A stretch of DNA of 64,000 nucleotides from a virus (IMGVR_UViG_3300021371_000010:1-64000), one strand, 5' to 3'. Shown: positions 1 to 64,000, counted from the first letter of the stretch. Numbers and translations: made by a program. The notes: a model not told the origin generated them from the letters alone.

Positions 1-1
1 T

Positions 2-1039
2 GCAAATGCTCAAGTAATTACTCAAACACCAGCAACTGGTGGTGCAGAGAAAGAGACAATTGAATCAATTAAATTTAAAGCAACTAAGTTCTATACATCT
101 CAGAATAGACTTGTGACCCTTAACGACTATAAAGCAAAAGTATCAGAGTATTATCCAAACGCAGATGCAGTTGCAGTTTGGGGTGGCGAAGATAATGAAC
201 CACCTGAATATGGCAAAGTGTTCATCTCTCTCAAACCAAAGAACTCAGATTACTTGTCTGAAGCAGAGAAGCAACAAGTATCAAACAATCTTAATCAGTT
301 AAACATGTTAACTGTTAGACCAGTTATTGTAAACCCAGAGATTGTAAAGATTCTTTGCAGTACGACATTCAAATACAATAAGAACTTAACAACATTAGCA
401 CTAGGAGAATTAGAAACTATCGTAAGAGGTGCTATTGTGAATTTTGACAATACTAACTTAAATAATTTTGATAGTATATTCAGACATTCAAACCTACTTA
501 AAGCAATTGATGAGAGTGAAAACTCTATTCTTTCTAATACAACAAATATTAGATTATCTAAGAAGAAGACATTAAATCTAAACAAGAAAGAAGGTCACGT
601 TATTAAGTTTGGTAATGCATTCTATAATCCACATTCTGGACATAACGCAGAAGGTGGAGGTATATTACAATCTACAGGATTTAAAATACAAGGTGATGCA
701 TTAAACACACACTACTATGATGATGATGGAAAAGGCAATCTTAGAAGATACATCTTATCAGACGGTGTAAGAGTTATAAAGAACAGCACAGCAGGTACAA
801 TTGATTACACTGCTGGACAAATTTCAATTGATGCAGAAACATTTACCTCAACAGTAAATAATGACACATCAATAGAATTTACCATAGTACCTTCATCTAA
901 CGATGTTATTGCGATTAGGGGTTCTCTAATTGATATTGACGTTGATAGAATTAAGGTCACTGGTGAAGTAGACACCATCGCAAGTGGTGAGGCGAGTGCT
1001 GGAGTAGGATATACTTCAACATCTACGTCTAATTATTAA
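2..1039 (+). CDS. gp6: Baseplate wedge protein gp6, 3' part (5' truncated by window)
   Basis: An open frame runs from the first bases of the window to a TAA at 1039, giving 345 residues of the C-terminal part of gp6. In T4 this protein forms the wedge dimers that make the continuous ring of the baseplate. The stretch reading IKFKATKFYTSQNRLVT followed by LNDYKAKV and AVWGGEDNEPPEYGKVF is the characteristic conserved block of T4-like gp6 in marine phages. The true start lies upstream of the window; the internal GTG at 113 is not the start because the conserved block begins before it. The gene is followed by other baseplate genes, as in marine T4-like genomes. The family assignment rests on remembered sequence pattern, not an alignment. 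Confidence 0.87.
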   Translation, partial: ANAQVITQTPATGGAEKETIESIKFKATKFYTSQNRLVTLNDYKAKVSEYYPNADAVAVWGGEDNEPPEYGKVFISLKPKNSDYLSEAEKQQVSNNLNQLNMLTVRPVIVNPEIVKILCSTTFKYNKNLTTLALGELETIVRGAIVNFDNTNLNNFDSIFRHSNLLKAIDESENSILSNTTNIRLSKKKTLNLNKKEGHVIKFGNAFYNPHSGHNAEGGGILQSTGFKIQGDALNTHYYDDDGKGNLRRYILSDGVRVIKNSTAGTIDYTAGQISIDAETFTSTVNNDTSIEFTIVPSSNDVIAIRGSLIDIDVDRIKVTGEVDTIASGEASAGVGYTSTSTSNY

Positions 1040-1040
1040 T

Positions 1041-1080
1041 ATGCAAGAAGTGATCGTGTGGTTTTCCCACGAGTAGTTTC
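1041..1080 (+). other. Small imperfect hairpin between gp6 and the next gene
   Basis: TCGTGTGG, a TTTT loop and CCCACGA form a stem with one bulged base, just after the gp6 stop. No T-tract follows, so it does not look like an intrinsic terminator. It may be an RNA-processing or stability element. Confidence 0.3.
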
Positions 1081-1111
1081 CCATTTATTTGGATTATAGG
1101 AGGATAATTAA

Positions 1112-1612
1112 ATGGCAGATAAAAAGATAACGGCGTTAAACGCCATCGGAGAAGGTCAAGTAGACTCAGGTGATTTACTTCACGTGGTCGATGACCCACA
1201 GGGTACACCTGTAAATAAGAAAATGACGTTGGCAACTTTGTTCAACAACATTCCGACTTTCTTGGCACTTGATAGTGTTGAAGCATTGAACGAATCAACA
1301 TTTGTATCAGCAGGTGTTGGAGTTTCAACTGCAATAACAACACTAGACTTTACTGGTCAAAGTGGTTCATCAGATATTTCTGGTGACTTACCTGTACCAA
1401 GTCATGAAGGTCAAATTAAAGTCATCATCAGAAAGAAAGATGACGTTAGTGGTGTTGGTGGTTCAATCGATGTACCAGCGGCATCAAACTGGGTTTCAGG
1501 TGCTTCAGCAACAGCAGTTGCAGTTATGGAGTCAAACTCAGCAATGGTATTAGTTGGAGTAGGTTCAACATGGTACCCAGTTGCAACAGTAGGTACTGTT
1601 ACTCTTAGTTAA
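1112..1612 (+). CDS. Small virion-associated protein of unknown role
   Basis: This 166-residue protein sits in the baseplate block between gp6 and the gp7-like gene and has a clear ribosome binding site (AGGAGG, 8 nt before ATG). The N-terminus (KITALNAIGEGQVDSGDLLHV, DDP..TPVNKK) resembles the start of many phage tail-associated or fibre proteins that begin by listing a parameter such as 'DLLHVVDDP'. The remainder is rich in Ser, Val, Gly and Ala with alternating hydrophobic residues, which suggests beta structure. No catalytic motif, signal peptide or membrane segment is visible. I infer a structural role from position and composition only; a baseplate or fibre-attachment decoration protein is plausible. 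Confidence 0.6.
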   Translation: MADKKITALNAIGEGQVDSGDLLHVVDDPQGTPVNKKMTLATLFNNIPTFLALDSVEALNESTFVSAGVGVSTAITTLDFTGQSGSSDISGDLPVPSHEGQIKVIIRKKDDVSGVGGSIDVPAASNWVSGASATAVAVMESNSAMVLVGVGSTWYPVATVGTVTLS

Positions 1613-1628
1613 TTGATGGATTAATCAG

Positions 1629-5381: not shown

Positions 5382-5407
5382 TTTGTAAAAATCTTCATAG
5401 GCAATGT

Positions 5408-5458: not shown

Positions 5459-6952
5459 ATGGCAGCAATTATTTTAGAAAAGTTTAGAACGCATAATGCG
5501 AAAGAATTCATCGCAGATTTTGGCGATTCATCAAACTATATTTTTATAGGCAGAACACATGCGTGGGTAGATGCAAGTGATTCATCAATAGACGACAATA
5601 ATCCACCTTCACCAGCAAATTCAGAGAGTGAAGAAGTAAGAGCATTCGAAGATATGATTGCACTTAAGCAAGTTGGTACAGGAGACGTATCACATGGATT
5701 AGTTAGACATAACTGGACAGTAGGAACTGTTTACGATGAGTATAGAGATGACTACAGTGCATCAAATCAGACTCCATCAGGTGCTAACAACTTCTTTGAT
5801 GGTAGAGGTTATGTTGTAACTTCAGACTACAAAGTTTATAAGTGTCTTAAAACTCCATTTTCCTCAGGAACAGCACAAGGCGCCGCAGTAAATAGTGAAC
5901 CAACTACTACTTCAACAACTGATCCTCAAGTTACAACAGATGGTTACATGTGGAAATTCATGTATCAAATTCCTGCCTCAGAAGTTATTAAGTATGTTAC
6001 TAACGATTTCATTCCAGTTAAAACACTAGGTGCTAAAACAACAGTTGCAGGTTCTGGCACAGGTGGTGGATTCGGAACATCTGCTTCAGATGACGGTTCA
6101 GCACAATGGGACGTAGAAGATGATGCAGTAGACGGAGCAATTTACAGATACATTGTTAAAACTGCAGGTACTGGTTATAGAAATAACTCTAACGCAACAG
6201 ACTTTTCAGTAGACGTAGCAGTAGAGGGAGATGGTTCTGGTGCAGTAGCAACATTATCATTCGTTGGTGGTGCATTGAACAACGTAGTATTCAAAGACTC
6301 ATCATCATATGGTGCAGGATATAAAAGAGCATCATTCCCAACAATTGGTTCTGCAATATCAGGAATCTCAAGTGGTTCTGGTGCAACTATTCATGCAGTT
6401 ATTTCTCCAATTCATGGACATGGAGCAAATCCAATCGAAGAACTTGGTGGTAACTTTGTTATCTTAAACTCAAGATTAGAATTCGGTGATGGTCAAGGAG
6501 ACTTCCCAACAGATAACGACTTTAGACAAATTGGATTGATTAAGAATCCTGCTAAAAGAGATGGATCAATCTCAAACTTGGGAACTATGACTGCTACTCA
6601 GAAACTAACACTTGATGATGCATCAACAGTATCAGTAGATGACATTATTGTGTCTGATCTAAATAACAATGCATCAACAAAAAGAGCAAGGGTTGTATCT
6701 AAAACAAGTAATGTTATCAGAGTACTTCCAATCGCAAATGGCGGTGGTGAGTTTGTAAACTTTGTAGCAGAAGATGACATTTATCTAAATGATGCGGGTT
6801 CTAAAGTAACAGATGTATCATTAAACGGTATTGATAATGATCACCCAGAAGTTTCTCGATTTACAGGTGACATCTTGTATGTTGAGAATAGAGGTCCAGT
6901 ATCAAGGGCCGCTGATCAGATTGAAGATATCAAACTGATTATTGAAATGTAA
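5459..6952 (+). CDS. gp8: Baseplate wedge protein gp8
   Basis: The 497-residue product starts MAAIILEKFRTHNAKEFIADF and continues with SNYIFIGRTHAWVD. This is the typical opening of gp8 in marine T4-like phages, where it forms a wedge dimer between gp7 and gp10. Aromatic and beta-rich segments such as DGYMWKFMYQIP near residue 160 also fit the family. T4 gp8 is 334 residues; marine versions are longer because of an inserted glycine-rich, repeat-like middle (about residues 195-300), which is visible here. It is preceded by a late promoter and a GAGGA ribosome binding site and is followed after 40 nt by the large DUF4815 protein. Confidence 0.85.
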   Translation: MAAIILEKFRTHNAKEFIADFGDSSNYIFIGRTHAWVDASDSSIDDNNPPSPANSESEEVRAFEDMIALKQVGTGDVSHGLVRHNWTVGTVYDEYRDDYSASNQTPSGANNFFDGRGYVVTSDYKVYKCLKTPFSSGTAQGAAVNSEPTTTSTTDPQVTTDGYMWKFMYQIPASEVIKYVTNDFIPVKTLGAKTTVAGSGTGGGFGTSASDDGSAQWDVEDDAVDGAIYRYIVKTAGTGYRNNSNATDFSVDVAVEGDGSGAVATLSFVGGALNNVVFKDSSSYGAGYKRASFPTIGSAISGISSGSGATIHAVISPIHGHGANPIEELGGNFVILNSRLEFGDGQGDFPTDNDFRQIGLIKNPAKRDGSISNLGTMTATQKLTLDDASTVSVDDIIVSDLNNNASTKRARVVSKTSNVIRVLPIANGGGEFVNFVAEDDIYLNDAGSKVTDVSLNGIDNDHPEVSRFTGDILYVENRGPVSRAADQIEDIKLIIEM

Positions 6953-13966: not shown

Positions 13967-15941
13967 CAATTACAGCACAATAGAAGACTTCAGAAGAACG
14001 TACAACGAACTTGCAGTTGACGTTGGTGATATTCGTGGTTTAAGAACTACAAATCAAGCAACACTTACAGATGCAGTAAACAGTATCGAAGATAAATCAT
14101 TCTTCTTCCAAGAATTTGTGTATACTTCAGATGATACAGATGCAAACGATGGATCTGGTCCATACAATTTCTTTGGAGCAGATATCTTTGCTAACGTCTT
14201 AAAGTATAAGAAAGATAGGGTACAAGTATTTGTTAATGGGGTTCACTTGAGTGAAGGTATTGACTATACTGTTACGGGTCTTCAAGCAGATGCTACTTAC
14301 AATCAAATACAAATTTCAAACACTTCACCATCTTTTGGATCAGGTCTAACAGACGGTGATAGATTAACAGTTTACTCATATACAGGATCGTATCTTGGTG
14401 TAGCAGTTCAAAATACTGGCGCCCAGTTCTTCTTGCTTGATGAGACACAAACAATTTACAATAACAATGCTAACGGTCTCATATTCAATGGTAGTAACAG
14501 TAATCTTGTAACTACATTGCAATCTGGTTTCACAATTCAAAATGAAGGTAATACTTTAGTAAATGGTGAACTTACAGTTGATACAGGACATACACTAACA
14601 GCACCTACAATTACAGACGGAATTGCAACACTATCAAGTGGTTCAATCACAAATGGTGTGAATGGTACTTTCTCAGGTACTATTCAAGCAGAGCATCTCT
14701 ATACAACAGACGATTTACAAGTTGGTGATGATGCAACAATTAGTGGAGATTTGACAGTTAATGGTGCCGTAACCTTAAACGGTAGTACAATTACTCTAGG
14801 TAATCATGCAGATGATAATGTCGTATTTAATGCAGACGTAAACACAGATATCAAACCAAATCAAACTGGTCTCGATCTTGGTTCAAGTACTCAGAAGTGG
14901 GACAACTTATATGTAACAGAAGTTCAAGGTAATATCGATGGTAACGTTTACAGTGGTAGTACTCTTGTTCTGAATAATACTACTGCTCACCTAACAGGAA
15001 CAGTATCAGATATTTCAAATCACGATACAGATGATTTAACAGAAGGTTCAAGTAACTTATACTTCACTACTGCAAGAGCAAGAGAATCTATCAGTGAAAA
15101 CTCAACTCAGTTAGCATACGATAATTCAACTGGTGTATTAACATATACACAGGGCAACACTGATACTGTAGCAGAAGGAACATCTAATCTTTATTATACA
15201 AATGCTAGAGCAGATGAAAGAGTTGCTTTAGAAACAGGTGTTAATTTAGATTTATCAAATCAAGATACAGATGAACTAGCAGAAGGAAGTTCAAATCTAT
15301 ATTATACAAATACTAGAGCAGATGGTAGAATTGCATTACAAGTCGGTGCTAATCTAGATTTATCAAGCAAGTCTACAACTAATTTATCTGAAGGTACAAA
15401 CTTATATTACACAAATACTAGAGTAGATAATAGAATTGCCAGTGCTAGTATTGGTGATTTAGATGACGTATCTATCTCTAGCATTACGGCAGGTCAAGCA
15501 CTAACATGGTCAGATTCAGCAAATGATGGTAACGGTGGATTTACACCAACAACACTAGGTAGTAGTACAGATAGTTTTGCAGAGGGTTCAAATAACCTAT
15601 ACTTTACAAATGAGAGAGCAATGGACGCCGCCGCATCGATGATTACAACTGCTACTCACAGTAATATAACAGTAAGTTATGATGACGATGCAAATACATT
15701 GGCATTTAGTGCGGCCGCACAATATGGTGACTCAGATGTCGAGGCACATATTTCAGAAGGACCTGGTATTGATCTAGACACTTCTGGTTCAACTTTAGAA
15801 ATTTCTGCTTCGGCGCAGAAAGGGGTAAAAATATCAAGTACCCATGTAGAATTAGATTATGAAGTAGTATCGGCCTCTGGACTTTCAGGAACACCATCAG
15901 GAACAGGAAAACCAGAAGGACATCTATGGTTTGTGATATGA
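13950..15941 (+). CDS. Repeat-containing tail fibre protein
   Basis: The 663-residue product starts MAKTVDNYSTIEDFRRTYNE. It has an early segment DRVQVFVNGVHLSEGIDYTV seen in many phage fibre and neck-appendage proteins, then a 'TTDDLQVGDDATISGDLTVNG' segment. From about residue 350 come at least six copies of a repeat with core DDLTEGSSNLYFTTARARE (variants TNARADER, TNTRADGR, TNERAMDA), spaced unevenly. This core is widespread in marine phage fibres and in chaperone-type tail fibre modules. Composition is poor in Cys, Lys and Trp, as expected for a fibrous beta protein. Paralogous segments occur in the gene at 24264. It likely forms a trimeric fibre for host recognition; the receptor cannot be told. 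Confidence 0.8.
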   Translation: MAKTVDNYSTIEDFRRTYNELAVDVGDIRGLRTTNQATLTDAVNSIEDKSFFFQEFVYTSDDTDANDGSGPYNFFGADIFANVLKYKKDRVQVFVNGVHLSEGIDYTVTGLQADATYNQIQISNTSPSFGSGLTDGDRLTVYSYTGSYLGVAVQNTGAQFFLLDETQTIYNNNANGLIFNGSNSNLVTTLQSGFTIQNEGNTLVNGELTVDTGHTLTAPTITDGIATLSSGSITNGVNGTFSGTIQAEHLYTTDDLQVGDDATISGDLTVNGAVTLNGSTITLGNHADDNVVFNADVNTDIKPNQTGLDLGSSTQKWDNLYVTEVQGNIDGNVYSGSTLVLNNTTAHLTGTVSDISNHDTDDLTEGSSNLYFTTARARESISENSTQLAYDNSTGVLTYTQGNTDTVAEGTSNLYYTNARADERVALETGVNLDLSNQDTDELAEGSSNLYYTNTRADGRIALQVGANLDLSSKSTTNLSEGTNLYYTNTRVDNRIASASIGDLDDVSISSITAGQALTWSDSANDGNGGFTPTTLGSSTDSFAEGSNNLYFTNERAMDAAASMITTATHSNITVSYDDDANTLAFSAAAQYGDSDVEAHISEGPGIDLDTSGSTLEISASAQKGVKISSTHVELDYEVVSASGLSGTPSGTGKPEGHLWFVI

Positions 15942-15942
15942 T

Positions 15943-17574
15943 ATGTCAGATAAAATATATGTAAAGCATCAACTTGCAGGCGGTAGTTTTCAGCAACCGT
16001 ATAACTATCAGGTTCCAACACCTCTTAGAACTCCTGCAATTAAAAACCAAACTTATCGTCACCCGACAATAACGCAGGTCCCTCAGACCTATATTGCAAC
16101 TGGGAGAACAACTGCTAGGTATCCTTTCACATATCCATTTACAACGCAAGGAACTACTCAACAACCTAACACGTATAATATACAAACTTCAGCACAGGGT
16201 AACACGAGAGGTAATACTCGAATTTCTGCTCAAGAAACAACACCTGCTATTGGTAACTCTAGAGTTATTGGTAACACTAGGGCACCAATCGATGCACAGG
16301 GTACAACGATTACACGATACCCATATATTCAACCATTGATCGGGAATACTCAAGCAAACGCACAGCAACCAAATACGTATTCTTATCAATCACCGTTTAC
16401 ATATGATATTCAATCACCAACACAATATAGTATACAAACTTCTGTAAATGCACAGTCGCCCTCAATTGTTGATTATTCATATCAAACATCGTTACAGCAA
16501 CCTACAATTACACGTTATCCATTTACATATGAATACAATGTGCAAAATGCTACTCAAGGAAGTACTCGATACCCATTTACTTATCCGTTTACTGGGAGTT
16601 CTACAACACCAGTAATTAAAGTAGACAATTATAATATCGATGATCAAATTCATATACCAGATGAAACTGGTACTGGTACTTCAAGTAATAACCCTATGGT
16701 TTCAACTTTGACAGCAACTACTTTGTTGAGTACTCCTCAAACAAGAGGTGATGCAATTTACTTTAGACTTAGAAGAGTACTACCAACTACATCGGGTTAT
16801 ACATCTTCTAATGATTATCTAGTTCTCGAAGCAGTAAAAGATAGTGCCCAACATACTAAAACTGGTATAAGTGTATCAGTTGCTAACAGAGAAACATCTG
16901 GACCTCCAACTGGTCATACAGGAACAACTGTTATACAGAATTATAGTTCAACAGCAACGAATAATAATTATGTAGAAATAGCAAGATTCGGTTGTCCTGT
17001 AAGTGAAGGAGTGGTTTCTGAATTTGAAATTACATTAACACCAGACGCCACTACTACATTTAATACAACAGTGGGATCATTGTCAAATTCTGCTATTTCT
17101 GGTTGTTCTATATCTTTTGATACTACAACAAACTCAAATGGTTTCACTACTTATGCTTTTTCTAATTCAAATACTTCACATTATAATGACTGCTTAAATG
17201 CAAAAATATATGGAAGTTCTTTGATTTCTCCAAACTCTCAGGGATTTGGTATATTAACAACATACACATCAACGGGTACTGCTAGTTCGAGTTCATATAC
17301 AGTAAGGAATTATAGAGGTATTGATATATTAGTGAAACTTAAAAAGACGGGTAGGGGAACCCATACTACTCAGTATCCAATGAAACTAAATTTCATATAC
17401 TTAGCAAGTCATATTACTGGCGGCGGAGGCGGCGGAGGCGGTGGATTCCCATCACCATTCCCAAGTACTCCAAGTTTCCCAACGTTTGATCCGTTTAGTG
17501 ATCCATTCCACCCGTTCAACTTACCTCTTGTTCAGCAGTCAGTAGAACCTCTGGAGCAACGACTAGCAGGGTAA
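15943..17574 (+). CDS. Pro/Tyr/Asn/Gln-rich repeat fibre protein with poly-Gly C-terminus
   Basis: This 543-residue protein starts one base after the preceding stop. Residues about 20-225 are built from degenerate units of the type TRYPFTYPFT, TTQQPNTYNIQTSAQGNTRG. These have regularly spaced Pro, aromatic Tyr/Phe, Asn/Gln and a Gly-Asn-Thr-Arg turn. Residues about 225-490 form a non-repetitive Ser/Thr-rich domain with beta character. Near residue 493 comes a run of nine glycines, followed by a Pro/Phe-rich end (FPSPFPSTPSFPTFDPF). There is no Cys in the repeat region. The same repeat family makes up the genes at 17577, 26157 and 27934. I recognise no named family. A fibrous adhesin or shaft is inferred from the context of fibre genes on both sides. 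Confidence 0.7.
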   Translation: MSDKIYVKHQLAGGSFQQPYNYQVPTPLRTPAIKNQTYRHPTITQVPQTYIATGRTTARYPFTYPFTTQGTTQQPNTYNIQTSAQGNTRGNTRISAQETTPAIGNSRVIGNTRAPIDAQGTTITRYPYIQPLIGNTQANAQQPNTYSYQSPFTYDIQSPTQYSIQTSVNAQSPSIVDYSYQTSLQQPTITRYPFTYEYNVQNATQGSTRYPFTYPFTGSSTTPVIKVDNYNIDDQIHIPDETGTGTSSNNPMVSTLTATTLLSTPQTRGDAIYFRLRRVLPTTSGYTSSNDYLVLEAVKDSAQHTKTGISVSVANRETSGPPTGHTGTTVIQNYSSTATNNNYVEIARFGCPVSEGVVSEFEITLTPDATTTFNTTVGSLSNSAISGCSISFDTTTNSNGFTTYAFSNSNTSHYNDCLNAKIYGSSLISPNSQGFGILTTYTSTGTASSSSYTVRNYRGIDILVKLKKTGRGTHTTQYPMKLNFIYLASHITGGGGGGGGGFPSPFPSTPSFPTFDPFSDPFHPFNLPLVQQSVEPLEQRLAG

Positions 17575-18996: not shown

Positions 18997-20019
18997 GTGA
19001 AACCTACATTATGGACACGTGATGAGTGGTCCCCTTTGCAAGAATGCATTTTAGGGACTGCAAAAGAGTTCAACCTCACGAAAGACATCTCACATTATGT
19101 CGTTGATTGGCATGATAGTTCTTGGTCTGATTATATTGAAGCAGATTTCGAATACATCACTAAAGACATTATTGCTGAAGCAGAAGCAGACTTAAACTAC
19201 TTTCAAACAGTGCTTAGGACTCACGGTGTTGTCGTCCATCGCCCGCAAACATCTTTGACATGTAATCAGATCAGTAATGGTATGTGGGAAACAGGCCAGA
19301 TGCAATTTTACAATGTCAGAGACATTGCTTTTGTTATCGACAATACCATTGTAGAGTCAGCAATGTCAGTTCGTACAAGGTATTTTGAACAGTATAGTAT
19401 ACAACATATCTTCAAACAAAAATTCTTAGAAGGTGCTAAATGGTTGTCTATGCCTAAACCAAAACTATCAGATGATCACTATTCATTAAATGTATTTCCA
19501 GATATACCAACGCATGAACCATTACTTGATGGTGCAAACATATTGAGAATGGGAGATGATTTATTAGTAAGCACAAATTTAACTGCTAATAAAATGGGTG
19601 TTGAATGGTTAAGAAGACATTTTCCTAATCATAGAATACATGAGATTGATCTCACACATAAAGTTACATCTCATATTGATACAACATTTACAGTATTAAA
19701 AGAAGGTGTAGTATTGATTAATGAAGAGAGAATTAAAGAAGATGAAGTTCCAGATCTTTTTAAAGATTGGACAAAAGTATTCATCACTAAAGACATTATA
19801 GCAGATGTGCAACCAAAAGTCAAGAGAGGAATCGCATCTAAATGGGTTGGTATGAATATGTTTTCTATAGATCCCAATAATGTTTGTGTAGATGCATCAC
19901 AAGAACGTCTTATGGAAGTGATATCACAATATGTAAATCCTATACCTATACCTATGAAGCATTCTAGAATTCTGGGTGGAGGATTACATTGTTGTACTTT
20001 AGACTTATTAAGAAATTAA
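18997..20019 (+). CDS. Amidinotransferase-like enzyme (AGAT/arginine deiminase superfamily)
   Basis: The 340-residue protein carries the triad layout of glycine/inosamine amidinotransferases. E174 and D178 lie in EPLLDGANILRMGDD, H226 in HIDTTFTVL, and C332 in GGGLHCCTLDLLR at the extreme C-terminus. An upstream R108-D109 lies in NVRDIAFVI. In this family the Cys attacks the guanidino carbon of arginine and passes the amidino group to an amine, or hydrolyses it. The length is close to bacterial members. The start is GTG at 18997 without a good ribosome binding site. It sits between fibre genes and has a late promoter just downstream, an unusual place for a metabolic enzyme. The true acceptor substrate cannot be read from sequence; a deiminase or a modifying enzyme are alternatives. 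Confidence 0.8.
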   Translation: MKPTLWTRDEWSPLQECILGTAKEFNLTKDISHYVVDWHDSSWSDYIEADFEYITKDIIAEAEADLNYFQTVLRTHGVVVHRPQTSLTCNQISNGMWETGQMQFYNVRDIAFVIDNTIVESAMSVRTRYFEQYSIQHIFKQKFLEGAKWLSMPKPKLSDDHYSLNVFPDIPTHEPLLDGANILRMGDDLLVSTNLTANKMGVEWLRRHFPNHRIHEIDLTHKVTSHIDTTFTVLKEGVVLINEERIKEDEVPDLFKDWTKVFITKDIIADVQPKVKRGIASKWVGMNMFSIDPNNVCVDASQERLMEVISQYVNPIPIPMKHSRILGGGLHCCTLDLLRN

Positions 20020-43004: not shown

Positions 43005-43028
43005 ATATCGCCCTTGATTGGGCGATAT
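43005..43028 (+). other. Perfect 9-bp hairpin between gp19 and gp20
   Basis: ATATCGCCC (43005-43013), loop TTGATT, GGGCGATAT (43020-43028). The right arm overlaps the TATAAATA box by three bases. No T-tract follows. It may process or protect the abundant gp19 mRNA 3' end, or expose the promoter strand. Confidence 0.8.
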
Positions 43029-43033
43029 AAATA
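43026..43033 (+). promoter_or_regulatory. Late promoter TATAAATA abutting the portal start codon
   Basis: Exact TATAAATA; the ATG at 43039 follows after 5 nt (TAATT) with no ribosome binding site. This decides the portal start and suggests a leaderless transcript. Confidence 0.78.
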
Positions 43034-43038
43034 TAATT

Positions 43039-44568
43039 ATGGAAATATTTGGGTTTGAAATAACTCGTAGAAAAGACGAGTTAAGAGAAATAGACATCGA
43101 AAAGAAGTCTGCTTCTTCGTTTGTACCACCTCAGATCGATGATGGCACCCCTGTCATTCAGCAATCTCCCGGTGGTTTCATATCAGGAGGGGCATACGGT
43201 TCGTATGTCGACATGGAAGGAAATATCAAGAATGAAGTACAACTCATTCGAAGATATAGAGAAACTTCTTTGGTACCTGAGTGCGATGCGGCCATTGACG
43301 ATATCGTTAATGAATGCGTAGTATCTGATACACAAGATAGAATTGTAGCACTCGACTTGCAAGATGTTGATCTTTCAGAAAGCATCAAAAAGAAGGTGCA
43401 AGGCGAGTTCAAGCACATCTTATCTTTAATGAAGTTCAATCAGAACTCTCATGAACTATTCAGAAAATGGTACGTCGATGGAAGAATCTACTTCCATAAA
43501 GTTGTCGACTCTAAAAACCCTAATAGAGGTATCGTAGATATCAGAAATGTTGACCCTCTTAAAATTAAGAAGGTCAGAAACGTCGAGAAGGAAAAAGATC
43601 CTAAGACGAAGATCGATAAGATCAAAAAAGTTGAAGAGTTTTATGTCTTCAACGATAAAGGATTCGACAGAAGTGGCACTAATGAAGGTGCTACTATTAG
43701 AATCGCACCAGAGGCAGTATGTTATACTACTTCTGGTATGTTAGATTACACTAAGAATATTGTAATCGGGTATTTGCATAAAGCACTGAAGACTTCTAAT
43801 CAGTTAGCAATGATGGAAGATGCACTTGTTATTTACAGAATATCAAGGGCACCTGAAAGAAGAATCTTCTACATTGATGTTGGTAACTTACCAAAAGCAA
43901 AGGCAGAACAATACCTTGCTGAAACAATGAACAAGTATAGAAATAAACTTGTTTACAATTCAGACACAGGTGAGATCAAAGATGATCGAAGACATATGTC
44001 CATGCTTGAAGATTTTTGGTTACCTAGGAGAGAAGGTGGTAGAGGGACAGAAATATCTACTTTACCAGGTGGTCAGAACTTAGCAGATATTGATGATATA
44101 GAATACTTTAAAAAGAAACTATATCGATCACTGAATGTACCCATTAGTAGAATGGAGTCAGACAACGGTTTTAATATGGGCCGTGCTTCAGAGATCAGTA
44201 GAGATGAACTTAAGTTCAACAAATTTACAAAGAGATTGCAAAATAAATTTGCTAGACTCTTTACAGACATACTGAGAACTCAGTTGATACTAAAGAATGT
44301 TGTATCAGGTGATGAGTTCGATGAATTCAAAGATTTCATCAGGTATGATTTCTCTACAGATAATCACTTCTCAGAGTTAAAAGAGCAAGAGATTTTTAGA
44401 GAAAGATTAGATATATTATCACAAGCAGAGAACTATCTCGGTAAGTTCTTCTCAGAAAAATACATTGCTAAAAATGTATTGAGAATGACAGACGATGACA
44501 TTGAAAAGATGGCAAAAGAGATAGAAGATGAAGGTGGTAATGAAGAAGATGGAGACATGGACTTTTAA
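43039..44568 (+). CDS. gp20: Portal vertex protein gp20
   Basis: This 509-residue protein is read from the ATG at 43039; a TTG seven codons upstream lies inside the hairpin and promoter and is rejected. Conserved segments are EVQLIRRYRETSLVPECDAA, IDDIVNECVVSD, LHKALKTSNQLAMMEDALVI and YRISRAPERRIFYIDVGNLP, followed by DFWLPRREGGRGTEISTLPG and NVPISRMESDNGFNMGRASE. T4 gp20 is 524 residues. The dodecameric portal nucleates prohead assembly and is the conduit for packaging by gp17. It is followed by the gp67/68-like core genes. Confidence 0.96.
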   Translation: MEIFGFEITRRKDELREIDIEKKSASSFVPPQIDDGTPVIQQSPGGFISGGAYGSYVDMEGNIKNEVQLIRRYRETSLVPECDAAIDDIVNECVVSDTQDRIVALDLQDVDLSESIKKKVQGEFKHILSLMKFNQNSHELFRKWYVDGRIYFHKVVDSKNPNRGIVDIRNVDPLKIKKVRNVEKEKDPKTKIDKIKKVEEFYVFNDKGFDRSGTNEGATIRIAPEAVCYTTSGMLDYTKNIVIGYLHKALKTSNQLAMMEDALVIYRISRAPERRIFYIDVGNLPKAKAEQYLAETMNKYRNKLVYNSDTGEIKDDRRHMSMLEDFWLPRREGGRGTEISTLPGGQNLADIDDIEYFKKKLYRSLNVPISRMESDNGFNMGRASEISRDELKFNKFTKRLQNKFARLFTDILRTQLILKNVVSGDEFDEFKDFIRYDFSTDNHFSELKEQEIFRERLDILSQAENYLGKFFSEKYIAKNVLRMTDDDIEKMAKEIEDEGGNEEDGDMDF

Positions 44569-47089: not shown

Positions 47090-47107
47090 AGGAGAAAATG
47101 TAAAATG
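47090..47107 (+). promoter_or_regulatory. Ribosome binding site with start-stop codon pair before gp23
   Basis: AGGAG is followed after AAA by ATG-TAA and one base later by the gp23 ATG (47105). The first ATG is immediately followed by a stop. The gp23 ATG is chosen because it opens the conserved protein; its spacing to GGAG is 10 nt. Confidence 0.7.
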
Positions 47108-48415
47108 TTCTTATCAGAAAATTTACAAGAAAAGTGGTCCCCTATACTTGAGCATTCTGATCTTCCAAAGATCGAAGACAACTATAAGAGAGCGGTCACT
47201 GCTGTTATCCTCGAGAACCAAGAGAAAGCACTAGCAGAAGATAGAGCAACTCTTTCCGAGGCAGCACCTTTAAATGCTACAGGTGGTACAGCAATCAACA
47301 ATTGGGATCCTATTTTGATCTCATTAGTTAGACGTGCTATGCCAAATCTCGTTGCTTACGACATTTGCGGTGTTCAACCAATGACAGGTCCAACAGGACT
47401 TATCTTTGCTATGAAGGCAAGGTATCAAGATTATCCTTCAGCAGGACGTGAAGGACAATCAGAAGCATTAGGTATCAAAGAACCTAGAACTGGTTATTCT
47501 GCTTCAGCAGGACCAAACAGTACAGCAGGTGTTGATGCAGACCCAGAAGGAAATCCTTTTGCAGGGTCAAGTGCTTATCAAAACCAAACTTCAGGCGCAA
47601 TGGATACACAAAATGCAGAAGCATTAGGTGATGGAGCATCGAACCACTTTCAAGAGATGTCATTTACTATTGAGAAATCAACTGTAACTGCTAACTCTAG
47701 AGCATTAAAGGCCGAGTATTCACTCGAACTTGCACAAGACTTAAAAGCAATCCACGGTCTTGATGCAGAATCAGAACTAGCAAATATTCTTTCATCAGAA
47801 ATTCTTGCTGAAATCAACCGTGAAGTTGTTAGAGAAGTTAACAACCAAGCAAAAACTGGTGCGGAAGCAACTGCTTCAGCAGGTACTTTCAACCTAGACG
47901 TTGATGCTAACGGTAGATGGTCAGTTGAGAAATTCAAAGGATTATTGTTCCAAATCGAAAGAGAATCTAACAAGATCGCAAAAGAAACAAGAAGAGGTAA
48001 AGGTAACTTTATTCTATGTTCTTCAGACGTTGCATCTGCTCTTTCAATGGCAGGAGTATTAGATTACGCACCTGCTCTTAACACTAACATTAACGTTGAT
48101 GATACTGGCAATACTTTTGCTGGTGTTCTTAACGGTAGAGTTAAAGTATACATCGATCCATATGCTGGATCAGATTACTTGACTGTTGGTTATAGAGGAT
48201 CAAATCCGTATGATGCTGGTATGTTCTACTGTCCATATGTACCTTTACAAATGGTCAGAGCAGTTGGAGAGAATACTTTCCAACCAAAAATCGGATTCAA
48301 GACAAGATACGGAATGGTATCTAACCCATTTGTAGGTGATGCACCTGTAAGTGGTCTTGCACCAGATGGAAACAACCAGTACTACAGAAAGATGTTAGTA
48401 TCTAACATTCTGTAA
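47105..48415 (+). CDS. gp23: Major capsid protein gp23
   Basis: The 436-residue product starts MFLSENLQEKWSPILEHSDL and contains the conserved WDPILISLVRRAMPNLVAYD, GVQPMTGPTGLIFAMKARY and VTANSRALKAEYSLELAQDL, then RGSNPYDAGMFYCPYVPLQM. A maturation site for gp21 fits L50-S-E52 before A53 (LSEAAPLNATGG), the same position class as in other marine gp23 proteins. T4 gp23 is 521 residues; marine ones are around this length. It is followed by a strong intrinsic terminator, as expected for the most abundant virion protein. Confidence 0.97.
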   Translation: MFLSENLQEKWSPILEHSDLPKIEDNYKRAVTAVILENQEKALAEDRATLSEAAPLNATGGTAINNWDPILISLVRRAMPNLVAYDICGVQPMTGPTGLIFAMKARYQDYPSAGREGQSEALGIKEPRTGYSASAGPNSTAGVDADPEGNPFAGSSAYQNQTSGAMDTQNAEALGDGASNHFQEMSFTIEKSTVTANSRALKAEYSLELAQDLKAIHGLDAESELANILSSEILAEINREVVREVNNQAKTGAEATASAGTFNLDVDANGRWSVEKFKGLLFQIERESNKIAKETRRGKGNFILCSSDVASALSMAGVLDYAPALNTNINVDDTGNTFAGVLNGRVKVYIDPYAGSDYLTVGYRGSNPYDAGMFYCPYVPLQMVRAVGENTFQPKIGFKTRYGMVSNPFVGDAPVSGLAPDGNNQYYRKMLVSNIL

Positions 48416-49517: not shown

Positions 49518-49961
49518 ATGAAACTAGATGAAATCAAAGTGATGTGGTCAAACGACTGTGAGATCGATGATATCGAACTCGACAAGTCATCATTAGAAGT
49601 TCCAAAATTACATGCTAAATATTCAGAGTTACTAACTGATAATATTTTATTGTTAAGAAGTCAGCAGATGAAATTCAACATGCTTAGAAAAGATAAGTGG
49701 ATGTGGTTCAACGGCAAACTTGACGATGATAGAATTAGAGAACTTGGTTGGGCACCTGATCCATTTGATGGATTAAAAGTAATGAAAAGTGACTTTGGTA
49801 TATGGTTCGATTCTGATCCAGATCTACAAAGTCTCAAAGCAAAAATAGATTACTTACAGGAAACAATTGAATTTATTAAGAGATGTATGGATAATATCAC
49901 TTGGAGACATCAAACAATAAAGAACACTATCGAGTGGCGTAAATTTATGGCGGGTCAATAA
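49518..49961 (+). CDS. uvsY: UvsY recombination mediator
   Basis: The 147-residue protein has the UvsY layout: KLDEIKVMWSNDCEIDDIEL, LHAKYSELLTDNILLLRSQQ and WFNGKLDDDRIRELGWAPD, ending in a helical FIKRCMDNITWRHQTIKNTI. T4 UvsY is 137 residues; it forms rings, binds single-stranded DNA and gp32, and loads the UvsX recombinase. It is next to uvsW in the usual marine order, with an oxygenase gene between. The stop overlaps the next ATG (TAATG). Confidence 0.93.
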   Translation: MKLDEIKVMWSNDCEIDDIELDKSSLEVPKLHAKYSELLTDNILLLRSQQMKFNMLRKDKWMWFNGKLDDDRIRELGWAPDPFDGLKVMKSDFGIWFDSDPDLQSLKAKIDYLQETIEFIKRCMDNITWRHQTIKNTIEWRKFMAGQ

Positions 49962-50641
49962 TGCTTTATCACAATAACGTATGGATATATAAAGACTTTT
50001 TAACAAATGCAGAATGTGAAGTTGTTCATGCTACTGCTGAGAAACACGAACTTATGTCAGGTCGTATTGGATATAAGAACAATGACCCTGATGCACCACC
50101 TAAAACTGATGGTCAACAGAACAGTGAGATCAGACAATCAGACGTTAGATGGATACCCCATAATTCATTCGTAGAAGAGATAAGTCAAAAGATTGAAGAC
50201 GGCATCAACAGTGCTAATAGAGAAGCAGGTTGGAATTTACATTGGGATCAACCAGAGTCTCATCAATATACTATCTATCATCATAGACCAGAAGCAGAAG
50301 TAAAGGGAGATCATTACACTTGGCATATTGATTCAAGTCCAGATTGGCAAGGTCAAGGTGAAAGAATTAGAAAGTTAAGTTCAACACTTCAATTGTCAGA
50401 TCCAAATGATTATGAGGGTGGACACTTTCAATACATCAATCCAAATGGTATATTCGATAAGTTAAAAAGAAACGAAGAGTGGGTAGATATGCAACAGCAT
50501 ATTACAACAGTCCCATTCTCTGCCAAATCTAAAGGAACACTTATAGTTTTTCCTTCTCATACATATCATCAAGTAACACCAGTAACGAGAGGAACAAGAA
50601 TATCACTAGTCAGTTGGTTTCATGGTCCTAAGCATGTCTAA
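49961..50641 (+). CDS. 2OG-Fe(II) dioxygenase, PKHD-type
   Basis: The 226-residue product has H122-I-D124 in YTWHIDSSPDW, H203 in FPSHTYHQVTPV and R213 in GTRISLVSWFHGP. This is a complete set of iron and 2-oxoglutarate ligands in the PKHD-type hydroxylase pattern. The N-terminal WIYKDFLTNAECEVVHATAE and middle DPNDYEGGHFQY also fit. A similar gene between uvsY and uvsW occurs in cyanophages. Substrate unknown. It overlaps the next small gene by 8 nt. Confidence 0.87.
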   Translation: MLYHNNVWIYKDFLTNAECEVVHATAEKHELMSGRIGYKNNDPDAPPKTDGQQNSEIRQSDVRWIPHNSFVEEISQKIEDGINSANREAGWNLHWDQPESHQYTIYHHRPEAEVKGDHYTWHIDSSPDWQGQGERIRKLSSTLQLSDPNDYEGGHFQYINPNGIFDKLKRNEEWVDMQQHITTVPFSAKSKGTLIVFPSHTYHQVTPVTRGTRISLVSWFHGPKHV

Positions 50642-56802: not shown

Positions 56803-57435
56803 ATGTACGAATTAATAGAAGAAGCAAGTAAAGTTTTAAGAACTCCACCACCCGAGTTTGATTTTGAGAATCCTAAGGAAGATCCTAAGGAAATCGAAAA
56901 GAATATGATTGAAGCAATGGACAAGTTTGGTGGTATAGGTCTATCTGCTAATCAAGTTGGATTACCTTACAAAATGTTTGTAATGAAATCTGCTGATAAG
57001 GGTACAGTTGCTTTTTTTAATCCAAAGATAACAAGGTTGTCACAAGAAACGGATATGATGAAAGAAGGGTGTTTGTCATTTCCCGACATATACCTAATGA
57101 TTAAACGGGCAAAAGTGGTAGAACTTGAATACCAAGATGCAGATGGAGAACAACATACACTTGTATTAGAAGGACTAGCAAGTCGATGTGTACAACATGA
57201 AGTCGATCATCTAAATGGTATTGTGTTTCTACAAAGAGCATCAAGACTTAAAATTGAACGTGCATTAAAGTCACGAGATAAAGAAAAACGTAAACGGTTA
57301 GAATATGAAAGAAGAGTTGCAATCGCAAAATACTTCCAAGAACGTGCAGAAGCAGATAAAGATTCCAGCGGATCCAGTGATGATACCGAATCTACTGGAG
57401 AAGAATCAAGCACAGGAACTGATCAAGTTTCATAG
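56803..57435 (+). CDS. def: Peptide deformylase with Ser/Asp/Glu-rich tail
   Basis: The 210-residue product has motif 1 GIGLSANQVG (44-53), motif 2 EGCLSFP with metal ligand C90, and motif 3 QHEVDHLNG with H132 and H136 and catalytic E133. All active-site residues for removing N-terminal formyl groups are present. Motif 1 has Ser-Ala-Asn-Gln rather than AAxQ. Beyond the usual phage core of about 150 residues it has a basic helix (RDKEKRKRLEYERRVAIAKY) and an acidic, Ser/Thr-rich tail. The tail overlaps the start of the next gene by 56 nt in another frame. Deformylases are frequent in marine T4-like phages. Confidence 0.95.
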   Translation: MYELIEEASKVLRTPPPEFDFENPKEDPKEIEKNMIEAMDKFGGIGLSANQVGLPYKMFVMKSADKGTVAFFNPKITRLSQETDMMKEGCLSFPDIYLMIKRAKVVELEYQDADGEQHTLVLEGLASRCVQHEVDHLNGIVFLQRASRLKIERALKSRDKEKRKRLEYERRVAIAKYFQERAEADKDSSGSSDDTESTGEESSTGTDQVS

Positions 57436-58024
57436 AGAACACGATCATCTGTACAGAATAGGAAACGAAAGGGAATACTTAGGTATTCGTTTCATGCATA
57501 TCCATACACAATGGATTCGTGATTTATTGATAAGAATTTCATATGATTTGGTTGGCAATATCAGAAAGATATCTAATCAAGTAGTGTGGCCAGAAATGAT
57601 TGCTTTAAATGAATGGCCAATTGGGGGTGAACAACACCCTCATGTCGACACATATTCTAATCAAGAAATGAATCATCAAACAACTATCGATAGACCAGCA
57701 AGAGAATGGACATGTATTCTATATCTCAATGATGATTTCAGAGGTGGTCGAACTTATATACCTGAAGGTCAAGAAATGAACTTTGATGGTGTTGTAAGAG
57801 ACTATCAATATCAAGTCTTTGAACCAGAAGCATGTGCTGGACTTCTCTTTCAAGGAATCTATCTACCCCATGGCGTAGAAAAAATCAGAAGAAATTCACG
57901 ATACACTGTATCATTTTGGTTCTCATCATCACCAGAAAAGCAGATGATGATGCAACCTGTCCACGATCTAAATCTAGATGAAGATTCATGGCGACTTGCT
58001 ATGAAAGAAGACGGCCGAATCTAA
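57380..58024 (+). CDS. 2OG-Fe(II) dioxygenase, prolyl-4-hydroxylase type
   Basis: This 214-residue protein is read from ATG 57380; an ATG at 57305 would extend it by 25 residues inside the deformylase frame, with no Shine-Dalgarno support for either. The ligand set is complete: H88-V-D90 in GGEQHPHVDTY, H164 in LPHGVEKI and R174 in NSRYTVSFWF. DFRGGRTYIPEGQEM is the usual linking strand. It has a prolyl-hydroxylase-like layout and is one of several such genes in the window. Substrate unknown. Confidence 0.85.
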   Translation: MIPNLLEKNQAQELIKFHREHDHLYRIGNEREYLGIRFMHIHTQWIRDLLIRISYDLVGNIRKISNQVVWPEMIALNEWPIGGEQHPHVDTYSNQEMNHQTTIDRPAREWTCILYLNDDFRGGRTYIPEGQEMNFDGVVRDYQYQVFEPEACAGLLFQGIYLPHGVEKIRRNSRYTVSFWFSSSPEKQMMMQPVHDLNLDEDSWRLAMKEDGRI

Positions 58025-58577: not shown

Positions 58578-58580
58578 ACC

Positions 58581-58610: not shown

Positions 58611-58616
58611 AATCCT

Positions 58617-61007: not shown

Positions 61008-61279
61008 TGAGAAACTTAGCAATTGATATAACTGAATACGAAAACTTCCCAGATGGTGGCAATGTCGCAAGGAACAAATTTGCTGAAGCAATGGCAAACA
61101 TTGGTCCTGGTCCATGTGTGAAGTTCAACTGTGAGAGGCAACAAGAATGTGCATCTGAAAAAGTTGAATGTAAGGCATTTAGATACTGGGTAAACAATGA
61201 CAGTTACTGGACAAAAAGAAAAGGTGTTAAGACATCAATCAGTGTTGACCTAGGCAGATTAATCAAGGAGATGGAATAA
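61007..61279 (+). CDS. Small four-cysteine protein between CobT-like and CobS-like genes
   Basis: The 90-residue product starts within the stop of the preceding gene (ATAATG) and contains four Cys in PCVKFNCERQQECASEKVEC, spaced C-x4-C-x5-C-x6-C. This could hold zinc or an iron-sulphur cluster. The following FRYWVNNDSYWTKRKG is aromatic and basic. Marine T4-like phages have comparable short Cys proteins in early regions. Function unknown; its place suggests a link with the VWA/AAA+ pair. Confidence 0.6.
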   Translation: MRNLAIDITEYENFPDGGNVARNKFAEAMANIGPGPCVKFNCERQQECASEKVECKAFRYWVNNDSYWTKRKGVKTSISVDLGRLIKEME

Positions 61280-61818
61280 TGACCAAGATAGCACTATCAC
61301 AAATTGGTGAAAAGGGAGAAGCAAAAGCAAGGTGTGTAATGAGGGATATAATTGTCCCATTCAAAATCGTACCTGGTTTAACTGAAGAATCAATCAAGAT
61401 GTGCAAAGCATTCAATGTTGAATACTTAATCGAACTAGCACTAGCAAAGGTCGGAGGGTACAATTTTGTAGATGAATCTGGATTTGATTTTGATGATTAC
61501 TCAGATAGTAAGACTGCAAGTGTGGAACCTAGAGGTGGGGTGTCCATCGGGTCACTCGAAACAAAGATTGGTTCTATAAGAGCAGTGATCTATAATCCAT
61601 TTGAAGATAGGTTAGACTACTTCTTTTTTCCAGTTGATGGGTGGAAAGATTTAGAAGAAGCATCATACGGAAAAGCAAAGCACAAAACAAGAATCAGATC
61701 ATCTTATAATAAGACAACTCAGATGTATTCTAAGTTTGAACCTTATAGATGTAAAGACTTTAAAGAACTGGCAAAAAAAGTTGCCTGTGAAGTAGATGCA
61801 GAAATTATTTTGGGTTAA
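61279..61818 (+). CDS. Hypothetical early protein between CobT-like and CobS-like genes
   Basis: The 179-residue product starts within the preceding stop (ATAATG). MTKIALSQIGEKGEAKARCV; SIGSLETKIGSIRAVIYNPF, EDRLDYFFFPVDGWKDLEEA and RIRSSYNKTTQMYSKFEPYR. The latter part has a strand-rich core with basic and aromatic residues, which may hint at nucleic-acid contact. No motif assigned. A promoter for the CobS-like gene begins just after it. Confidence 0.55.
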   Translation: MTKIALSQIGEKGEAKARCVMRDIIVPFKIVPGLTEESIKMCKAFNVEYLIELALAKVGGYNFVDESGFDFDDYSDSKTASVEPRGGVSIGSLETKIGSIRAVIYNPFEDRLDYFFFPVDGWKDLEEASYGKAKHKTRIRSSYNKTTQMYSKFEPYRCKDFKELAKKVACEVDAEIILG

Positions 61819-61822
61819 GGGG

Positions 61823-61852
61823 TTGACAATGACCCTCACTTTTTGATACCAT
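61823..61852 (+). promoter_or_regulatory. Host sigma70-type early promoter with conserved spacer (copy 3)
   Basis: TTGACA (61823-61828), spacer with CTCACTTTTT, extended -10 TGATACCAT (61844-61852). The -10 hexamer is weaker than in the other copies but is supported by the TG. The next ATG is at 61896 with an AAGGAGA ribosome binding site. Confidence 0.72.
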
Positions 61853-61895
61853 TATAACTGATGAGAAATTTAACGTGTAATTTTAAGGAGACTAT

Positions 61896-63164
61896 ATGAA
61901 AGCACACAATGAGTATAATATAAAAAGATCGTATGACGAATCGGAGTCAGTCATACTTTCTACAGGGAAGAAATTCCACATGACTCCAGATAGGAAAGAA
62001 TTCTTAGCAGAACTTCAATCTGCCTTTCCTGAGCAATCTGTTTTTCTAAAAGAAGATTTAGAAAAACTATCACACACCCCATACTGGGTGAAGTCAACAA
62101 GGTTCCCTTTTGCTTCTGCTGATAAATCGTCATATGATTTGACTATGTTACTTGGTGGTTTGTCACCGACAGCAGTTCAAAATGTGAAACAACCAACGGT
62201 TATTCCAATGACACCAGCACCTGTTTCTAATAACATGCCTGTCGCCGCTCAGACTCAAGCAGTGAATCTGATCGAAGACAATGTAAAAATCATTCCTGAG
62301 AAAATGACTAACTATGTTCCGTTTGGACATTTCAAAGATGTCAAACAGATTATCAAGTCTAAGATTTTCTTCCCAGTCTTTGTGACAGGGTTATCTGGTA
62401 ATGGTAAAACATTGATGATCGAACAAGTATGTGCCCAACTGAAGAGAGAACTCTACAGGGTCAATATCACCATCGAGACTGATGAAGATGATTTGATGGG
62501 TGGTCATACTCTTCAAAATGGTAACATTACTTTCAGAGAAGGTCCTGTTATCAAAGCAATGAGAAAGGGTGCCGTACTCTTGCTCGATGAAGTCGATCTT
62601 GGTTCTAACAAGTTGATGTGTCTACAATCAGTTCTTGAAGGTAAAGGTTATCTAATCAAGAAAACTGGTGAGTGGGTGACACCTGCACCAGGATTTACAA
62701 TTCTTGCGACTGCTAATACAAAGGGTCAAGGTTCAGAAGATGGCAAGTTCATCGGAACTCAGATCATGAACGAGGCGATGCTTGAAAGATTCGCCATCAC
62801 AATGCAACAAGAATATCCACCAGTGTCAACTGAGAAGAGAATTCTTAAGAAAGAAATGGAACTAAGTGGTTCTGTTGATGAAGAGTTCTGTGACAAACTT
62901 GTCGACTGGGCAGACATTATCAGAAAGACCTATTACGAGGGTGCTATCGATGATGTTGTTACTACAAGGAGACTTGTTCACATTGTCAATGCATTCAGAA
63001 TGTTTGACGACAAAATGAAGTCAATCGAAATGTGTATTACAAGATTCGATGAAGAAACTAGAAGTTCCATTCTCGACCTCTACACCAAAGTAGATGCAGG
63101 GGTCGACATGGAAAACCCTCTTGAAGATTCAGAGTCTTCAGAGTATAATGAATACGATGAGTAA
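61896..63164 (+). CDS. cobS: CobS/MoxR-type AAA+ ATPase
   Basis: The 422-residue product has Walker A VTGLSGNGKTLM near residue 165, Walker B AVLLLDEVDLGS, a sensor region ILATANTKGQGSEDGKF, and an arginine-finger-like MLERFAITMQQEYP. The insert DEDDLMGGHTLQNGNITFRE (from about 197) is characteristic of CobS and MoxR proteins. Phage CobS genes are typical of cyanophages and other marine T4-like phages. In bacteria CobS works with CobT in cobalt insertion; here the likely partner is the VWA protein at 58617. The N-terminal 130 residues are phage-specific, with a Pro/Ala/Gln-rich linker. Confidence 0.9.
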   Translation: MKAHNEYNIKRSYDESESVILSTGKKFHMTPDRKEFLAELQSAFPEQSVFLKEDLEKLSHTPYWVKSTRFPFASADKSSYDLTMLLGGLSPTAVQNVKQPTVIPMTPAPVSNNMPVAAQTQAVNLIEDNVKIIPEKMTNYVPFGHFKDVKQIIKSKIFFPVFVTGLSGNGKTLMIEQVCAQLKRELYRVNITIETDEDDLMGGHTLQNGNITFREGPVIKAMRKGAVLLLDEVDLGSNKLMCLQSVLEGKGYLIKKTGEWVTPAPGFTILATANTKGQGSEDGKFIGTQIMNEAMLERFAITMQQEYPPVSTEKRILKKEMELSGSVDEEFCDKLVDWADIIRKTYYEGAIDDVVTTRRLVHIVNAFRMFDDKMKSIEMCITRFDEETRSSILDLYTKVDAGVDMENPLEDSESSEYNEYDE

Positions 63165-63447
63165 TAATATCGACTACAAATATAACGAGGACAAACTCTT
63201 AAACGAGTTTTCCTCTTATATTGATAATACATACGACCAACATTACTCACTAAACAAATACCAGAGTACTGAGTTTATTATTGACTCAGGACATGGTGAA
63301 GGTTTTTGTATCGGCAATATTATGAAATATGCACAAAGATACGGAAAGAAAGGTGGCAAGAATAGAGCAGACTTGTTAAAAGTTTTGCACTATGCCTTGT
63401 TTATGTTACACGTTCACGATAAGGAGACTGAGAATGAAATTAAGTGA
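63157..63447 (+). CDS. DUF3310-like protein (nucleotide kinase-type annotation)
   Basis: This 96-residue protein is read from ATG 63157, overlapping the preceding stop. LNKYQSTEFIIDSGHGEGFC and IGNIMKYAQRYGKKGGKNRA followed by DLLKVLHYALFMLH match the DUF3310 pattern (F..GN..KY..R...K.....DL.K...Y), small helical proteins common in phages and often labelled nucleotide kinase-like without proof. It overlaps gp45 by 14 nt. Confidence 0.78.
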   Translation: MSNNIDYKYNEDKLLNEFSSYIDNTYDQHYSLNKYQSTEFIIDSGHGEGFCIGNIMKYAQRYGKKGGKNRADLLKVLHYALFMLHVHDKETENEIK

Positions 63448-64000
63448 AGAAACAAGAAGTATATTAAAAAACTTCGCAACAATAAATTCGGGTATCAAAG
63501 TTGAGACAGGTTCTCAATTGAAGACTATTTCGAATATGAAAAACATCTTGGCAGTAGCAACTGTTTCAGAAGCATTTGACCAAGGGTTTAGTATATACAA
63601 TCTAGGAGAATTTCTAGGTGCAGTATCATTGCTAGATAATCCAGACTTTGCATTTAACGATGCATCTGCAAGTATCAGTGATGATAATACTAGCATGACT
63701 TACTTCTATGCAAGTGAGGGTATGGTGACATCGCCAGAGAAGATGATTACAATGCCTGATGCAGAGATTAAAGTTGATCTATCATCAACACTACTTGGCG
63801 AATTGCAAAAAGCGGCCAGTGTTTTAGGTGTTAGTGATTTAGTACTACAATCAGATGGTACTAAAATCGAGTTAGTAGTAACTGATAAAAAGAATGCAAC
63901 ATCAAATACATTCAGCAGAATCGTTGGAGAAGGTACAGGTGTTTCATTTACAATGAACTTTAAGATTGATAACTTGAAAGTTCTAGATGGTAATTATGAA
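63434..64000 (+). CDS. gp45: Sliding clamp gp45, 5' part (3' truncated by window)
   Basis: The 189 residues present begin MKLSEETRSILKNFATINSG, close to the T4 gp45 start, then YNLGEFLGAVSLLDNPDFAF and MNFKIDNLKVLDGNYE at the window edge. T4 gp45 is 228 residues, so about 40 residues are missing. The trimeric clamp tethers the DNA polymerase and also activates late transcription with gp55 and gp33. A GGAGA ribosome binding site lies 6 nt before the ATG inside the upstream gene. Confidence 0.94.
   Translation, partial: MKLSEETRSILKNFATINSGIKVETGSQLKTISNMKNILAVATVSEAFDQGFSIYNLGEFLGAVSLLDNPDFAFNDASASISDDNTSMTYFYASEGMVTSPEKMITMPDAEIKVDLSSTLLGELQKAASVLGVSDLVLQSDGTKIELVVTDKKNATSNTFSRIVGEGTGVSFTMNFKIDNLKVLDGNYE

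Follow-up and report, generated by a model that had tools for sequence, protein, structure and literature searches.

Introduction

Elimination of restriction sites is already known in phages, and near-complete or complete loss of a site has been found in about one-tenth of viral genomes (PMC6286503). Among marine phages, GANTC is depleted in about half of the pelagiphages, with the cause left open (PMC9516812). Here we analyse a stretch of 64,000 bases (positions 1 to 64,000, hereafter the window) out of the 71,925 bases of the IMG/VR record IMGVR_UViG_3300021371_000010. The record comes from a phage that we call G000, and from it a set of short words is missing. As judged from its gene content, G000 is a marine T4-like myovirus, and complete relatives of 140–151 kb suggest that the record covers about half of its genome. 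What is new here is an AGC-centred set of eliminated words with defined exceptions. Degenerate positions are written R (A or G), Y (C or T), W (A or T), S (C or G), H (not G) and D (not C).

Results

The original prediction, made from the sequence alone, was that AGCT, AGCC and GGCT are absent from the window, with AGCA and TGCT present in the hundreds and GGCC more than twenty times. Counting bears this out: the three words occur 0, 0 and 0 times, beside 486 AGCA, 271 TGCT and 24 GGCC. They are also missing from the remaining 7.9 kb, so that the count for the whole record is zero. We compared the counts with four null models, namely a maximal-order Markov model, dinucleotide shuffles (hits counted over both strands), synonymous-codon shuffles within 43 genes of the window, which preserve the proteins and the codon use, and simulations from the second-order statistics of a relative, G003. 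For the window, the Markov model expects 83 AGCT, 45 AGCC and 49 GGCT, and the dinucleotide shuffles give 187 AGCT and 170 AGCC hits. Within the 43 genes, 115.7 AGCT (sd 9.9), 62.1 AGCC and 50.7 GGCT are expected against none observed, while GGCC occurs 17 times against 24.1 expected. The G003-based simulations yield a mean of 60 AGCT (minimum 39) and of 130 AGCC plus GGCT (minimum 101). The ratio of observed to expected lies below 0.1, the limit used for Type II site elimination, for AGCT (0/96), AGCC (0/115) and GCAGC (2/46). The absence of AGCT, AGCC and GGCT far beyond chance is thus confirmed, including by the Markov and synonymous-codon comparisons that had been proposed as checks.

Compositional causes, such as mutational bias or codon usage, could be suspected, since G000 is AT-rich and its coding strand A-rich. 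However, every null model expects tens to hundreds of words where there are none, and AGCA and TGCT are over-represented, as expected if these words absorb synonymous replacements. The words are present in sister phages with the same G+C: T4-like phages of this composition have AGCY at normal levels, and the shared depletion that had been named as counter-evidence at the outset was not seen. These sister phages and the simulations rule out a compositional artefact, and we give explanations of this kind practically no weight.

The long gene-like open reading frames (ORFs) of G000 run nearly all in one direction, and both AGCC and GGCT are gone from the strand on which essentially all genes lie. 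Both orientations are likewise depleted for other words in the synonymous-codon shuffles, with 0 AGCGH against 23 expected, 0 DCGCT against 36, 2 GCAGC against 26 and 0 GCTGC against 6.5. An effect at the level of codons or mRNA would strike one orientation only, and the loss of both excludes it; strand symmetry and the synonymous shuffles together rule out codon bias and mRNA-level selection. Since the purge is symmetric despite one-way genes, selection acts on double-stranded DNA. Orthologous genes of relatives contain words that G000 replaces, often synonymously (AGCT by AGCA, GGCT by GGCA, ACGCT by ATGCT, GCWGC by GCSGC). Gene starts had been described as ATGGCA or ATGGCG and never ATGGCT; among all ATGGCN strings, gene starts or not, ATGGCT is indeed absent and ATGGCA (48) and ATGGCG (19) prevail, although ATGGCC occurs four times. 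The total absence, the symmetry of the two strands, the failure of codon use as an explanation and the rapid, lineage-specific turnover of missing words described below provide good support for selection against these words at the level of double-stranded DNA, such as a restriction system would exert. This much of the original interpretation stands; for the unusual DNA modification that it also offered, no evidence was found.

AGCY/RGCT, the motif first proposed, is right as far as stated and incomplete. AGCGH and GCWGC are gone as well, and GGCC and AGCGG are spared; that AGCG occurs only as AGCGG, that GCWGC is nearly absent and that GGATG is reduced had been overlooked. All 22 AGCG/CGCT sites of the record are AGCGG, with AGCGA, AGCGC and AGCGT at zero. 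In relatives that lack the purge, G follows AGCG in only 18.4% of cases, and at this rate 22 of 22 has a probability of about 7e-17. In the window AGCG begins at 1477 (the spared AGCGG at 1477–1481, plus strand, is an example), 8984, 21919, 22806, 40643, 46522, 47191, 57367, 59375 and 63811, and CGCT, always within CCGCT, at 6910, 21088, 31778, 32991, 35180, 41134, 42211, 42627, 45480 and 62246; two further sites lie in the record outside the window. GCAGC/GCTGC is nearly absent (2 against 46 expected) and GCCGC plus GCGGC is retained (36), as in avoidance of GCWGC with GCSGC spared. One surviving GCAGC is at 5462, in the start (ATGGCAGCA) of a baseplate wedge gene (5459–6952), and the other at 47261–47265 on the plus strand, inside the major head protein gene. 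GGATG, the FokI/BtsCI site, is reduced and not eliminated (20 against 89), and is low too in phages with normal AGCY. GGCC is not avoided in the record (28 against 35 expected), nor are GATC (300), ACGT (179) and most other palindromes; CCGG (10 against 28) and CGCG (4 against 15) are low.

Relatives were gathered with the head protein, the portal, the clamp loader gp44 and other genes, and then tested for missing 4-mers. Because several of these contigs are short, single zero counts are weak and we rely on pooled statements. The G000 signature recurs in an independent contig from a different metagenome, L261 (8.4 kb, gp44 87% identical), which has no AGCC, AGCT or GCAGC, has AGCGG at all four of its AGCG sites (26 of 26 when pooled with G000) and keeps GGCC (8 sites). 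In L338 (20.9 kb of a 24.4-kb contig, 30% G+C, gp44 about 61% identical) AGCY and GCAGC are absent and AGCGH is nearly gone, as are, additionally, RCAGC and GRAGC (one or two left) and CATG. Its kin L424–L429, lineages about 60% identical, have no AGCY and almost no RCAGC; one of them, L427, lacks RGCY and keeps AGCG and some GCAGC. RGCY including GGCC is absent together with GCWGC in L049/L111, where AGCG is kept, is the only loss in L113 and, nearly complete, in L203, and is nearly absent in L181 too; GCAGC is spared in both L113 and L203. AGCY is thus lethal across these lineages, with a varying fringe of other AGC-containing words. Such a graded fringe is better explained by an AGC-core enzyme than by a fixed site list, although it could also be the sum of several enzymes.

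Other relatives have been purged of quite different words. Of the 31 contigs of at least 5 kb whose gp44 reaches 73% identity, 30 lack one 4-mer or more, and which one differs among GATC, ACGT, GTAC, CCGG and CGCG; these, with CATG and TCGA, are the typical 4-bp Type II sites missing in relatives. G003 (140 kb) has ACGT 0/152, CGCG 0/70 and GATC nearly gone (18/546). In G002 (151 kb) the degenerate palindrome CSSG is nearly gone (8/179), a specificity that we do not recognise; over its whole record (L093–L100) CCCG, CCGG and CGCG are jointly eliminated, and GGATC is nearly absent (3). Often no word is missing from T4-like relatives that are more distant and of similar G+C. On a quick gp44 tree, which has open forks and uncertain word states for contigs below 6 kb, the minimum number of state changes is 15 for GATC, 10 for ACGT, 9 for CATG, 7 for GTAC and 3 for AGCY. 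G000 and L261 are nested in a group mostly without GATC and ACGT, and GATC in G000 is at 77% of expectation. By parsimony, a GATC purge appears to have been lost and the AGCY purge gained near the G000 branch. Further afield, cyanophage P-TIM40 (L612, NC_028663 100000–149000) has 40 GAAC/GTTC, a phosphorothioation (Dnd) motif, against 341 expected, with CCGG 0/36 and GCGC 0/35, and Stenotrophomonas phage DLP6 (L613, first 49 kb, 55% G+C) has no GGCC against 141 expected.

This diversity bears on the idea that G000 faced several host systems: a CviJI-like enzyme cutting RGCY (or an AluI-like enzyme and another), a TseI/BbvI-like enzyme cutting GCWGC and a FokI-like one cutting GGATG, with methylation sparing GGCC and AGCGG. 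The methyltransferase, perhaps a multispecific C5 enzyme, would protect sites overlapping GGCC or GCGG and could have its gene in the missing half of the genome. Pure RGCY purges that include GGCC do occur (L113, L049/L111), GCWGC is a known site which, being spared in L113 and L203, can vary independently of RGCY, and related phages encode methyltransferases, namely a C5 enzyme in the OM43 phage Melnitz and C5-like and N4/N6-like genes in L338. Moreover, between two and four words are missing together in many relatives, so that several systems per lineage would be normal. Against this, three or four enzymes and a special methyltransferase would be needed, AGCGH matches no enzyme site that we know of, and the signature shared by G000 and L261 recurs as a whole. 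We regard several systems as possible, though on the unlikely side.

No such methyltransferase was found in the record: scanning all of it with PF00145 and PF01555 gave no match to a C5 or N4/N6 DNA methyltransferase family. Pfam and PHROG scans of most of the longer genes revealed no restriction enzyme or sequence-specific endonuclease, and Pfam shows no nuclease domain in the four ORFs (18997–20019, 32459–33022, 38075–38869 and 61279–61818) that lack homologues in the main relatives. A contig search with gp41 of G003 for the other half of G000 returned none with the G000 signature. In L338, which is free of both AGCY and CATG, the C5 cytosine methyltransferase-like and N4/N6 methyltransferase-like genes lie at 826–1965 and 15609–16805; genes closely related to the first occur in many contigs, and nearly all of these contain AGCY words.

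The relatives with known hosts are Melnitz and the SAR11 phages HTVC008M and Mosig, the latter two isolated on strain HTCC1062. Mosig has ACGT 0/188, CGCG 0/45 and GATC nearly gone (19/381), and in the 99 kb of HTVC008M examined CGCG is absent (0/48) and TCGA (2/76) and CCGA (7/96) are nearly gone. CCGA is nearly eliminated in L061/G008 as well as in HTVC008M (L082, L611), in the latter together with TCGA and with CCGG not avoided, hinting at a YCGA-like specificity in this SAR11 phage. Restriction systems were found in one SAR11 genome out of more than 100 (PMC7029224) and in none of the SAR11 metagenome-assembled genomes (MAGs) of another study (PMC9516812). The purge could protect not from host defence but from nucleases that phages carry, whether the phage's own, for degrading the host or killing competitors, or those of co-infecting phages. 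Total purges in phages from a host reportedly almost without restriction systems would fit this, as would the quick change of missing words between close relatives. However, the Pfam and PHROG scans of most longer genes in the G000 record, about half of the genome, revealed no sequence-specific endonuclease, and other, restriction-bearing hosts would also explain the SAR11 isolates. We consider phage nucleases quite improbable as the cause. SAR11 phages may meet other hosts, or their purges may be directed at phage-carried nucleases.

The assignment of G000 to the T4-like myoviruses is based on PHROG and Pfam matches. On the plus strand they include the baseplate wedge gene already mentioned (a match to phrog_438), the large terminase subunit (38869–40455), which places the phage in this group, the tail sheath (40505–42487), and the portal (43018–44568) and gp23-like major head protein (47105–48415), which both served as queries for relatives. 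Further matches are to other baseplate wedge proteins, UvsY, a UvsW-like helicase, an SbcC/SbcD-like (gp46/gp47) pair and a CobS-like ATPase. ORFs beyond the window are read, by comparison with annotated relatives, as curli-like genes and a clamp loader resembling gp44. The head protein is 91% identical to that of L002/G001 and 65% identical to those of Melnitz and HTVC008M. Three contigs with head proteins 89, 85 and 83% identical (L580, L581 and L582) stand in Flavobacteriales/Sphingobacteriales MAG bins, possibly by mis-binning, and are a weak hint to the host of G000; purged words may bias composition-based binning of phage contigs. As a test for a Bacteroidota host, a Shine-Dalgarno-like 4-mer was found in 21 of 43 genes. 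Beside the large terminase gene lies a cargo ORF (38075–38869, plus strand) that Pfam assigns to generic class I methyltransferases (FtsJ/PrmA/Methyltransf_11); it has no homologue in the loci compared, belongs to no DNA methyltransferase family and gives no sign of DNA protection. The same place holds other cargo in HTVC008M and Melnitz. Genes resembling 2OG-Fe(II) oxygenases, at least four in number (31765–34631, 49961–50641 and 57305–58024), are interspersed with the structural and replication genes.

Discussion

The words are very probably missing through a sequence-specific cutting defence that destroys copies of the genome containing them, and avoidance of a restriction endonuclease is the kind of explanation with the best support. 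More specifically, we find it somewhat probable that selection on double-stranded DNA has removed from G000 every site cut by a restriction endonuclease of its host or hosts. The enzyme would have AGC, read on either strand, as its core. AGCY would always be lethal, AGCG lethal unless a second G follows, as in AGCGG, and AGCA tolerated except when preceded by GC (GCAGC). We propose that GGCC is ignored because it contains no AGC on either strand. The word classes would then reflect one enzyme of graded specificity, not two or three, and AGCGG would be spared by the enzyme's own preference and not by overlapping methylation. Since the set matches no single specificity known to us, the enzyme behind it may be one not yet characterised.

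Several points weigh against a host enzyme of this kind. The set is not one orthodox palindrome, as AGCC and AGCGH are non-palindromic and GGCC is kept, and avoidance in viral genomes concerns almost solely orthodox Type II sites, not those of Type I, IIG or III systems (PMC6286503). The GCWGC and GGATG purges may be due to separate enzymes, since GCAGC is spared in L113 and L203, where RGCY is purged, and GGATG is low also where AGCY is normal. For G000 itself no matching enzyme was found; nor do we know of any enzyme in REBASE that would cut AGCY and AGCGH without GGCC. Finally, it is a puzzle that SAR11 isolates show the same kind of purge, though restriction systems are reportedly all but absent from SAR11 genomes.

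The words missing from a phage genome directly record the sequence-specific nucleases that its lineage has survived, and this record can be read from metagenomes with no need of the host; as relatives are purged of quite different words, the missing letters record the defence that each lineage faced. Their fast turnover, with a GATC purge lost and AGCY gained, could act as a clock of host or defence changes. Purges in phages of SAR11, reported to be without restriction systems, raise the question of who cuts these phages. One speculation, which we hold to be improbable, is that an AGC-core nuclease with graded flanks, unlike catalogued enzymes, circulates in marine bacteria or phages, and that T4-like marine phages rewrite their genome rather than methylate it. 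In lineages infecting hosts that lack restriction systems, phages would use the nuclease as a weapon, and missing words would mark phage–phage warfare or self and non-self during host DNA breakdown.

Compared with known systems, the GANTC depletion of pelagiphages is alike in being a lineage-specific word loss in marine phages whose hosts have no recognised restriction systems. Unlike the G000 words, GANTC is a cell-cycle methylation mark of the host, a 5-bp gapped site, and its depletion is mainly in podoviruses (PMC9516812). Avoidance of GCWGC, the TseI/ApeKI/BbvI site, accounts for the near loss of GCWGC with GCSGC spared and for that part of the pattern only. AGCT is absent as expected for AluI, but AGCC/GGCT and AGCGH are absent too, in contrast to G008 (L061), which has one AGCT and 52 AGCC. 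Three CviJI sites (RGCY, cut by a chlorella virus enzyme), AGCT, AGCC and GGCT, are all eliminated; unlike in avoidance of CviJI, GGCC is kept in both G000 and L261, and AGCGH and GCWGC, which are not RGCY, are gone. The AGCC and GGCC counts therefore rule out a single AluI or CviJI specificity. Type II site elimination (Rusinov et al. 2018, PMC6286503) shares with G000 the near-total loss of short words on both strands of a double-stranded DNA phage; those eliminations almost always match orthodox sites of host enzymes, whereas the G000 set includes AGCC and AGCGH and makes exceptions of GGCC and AGCGG.

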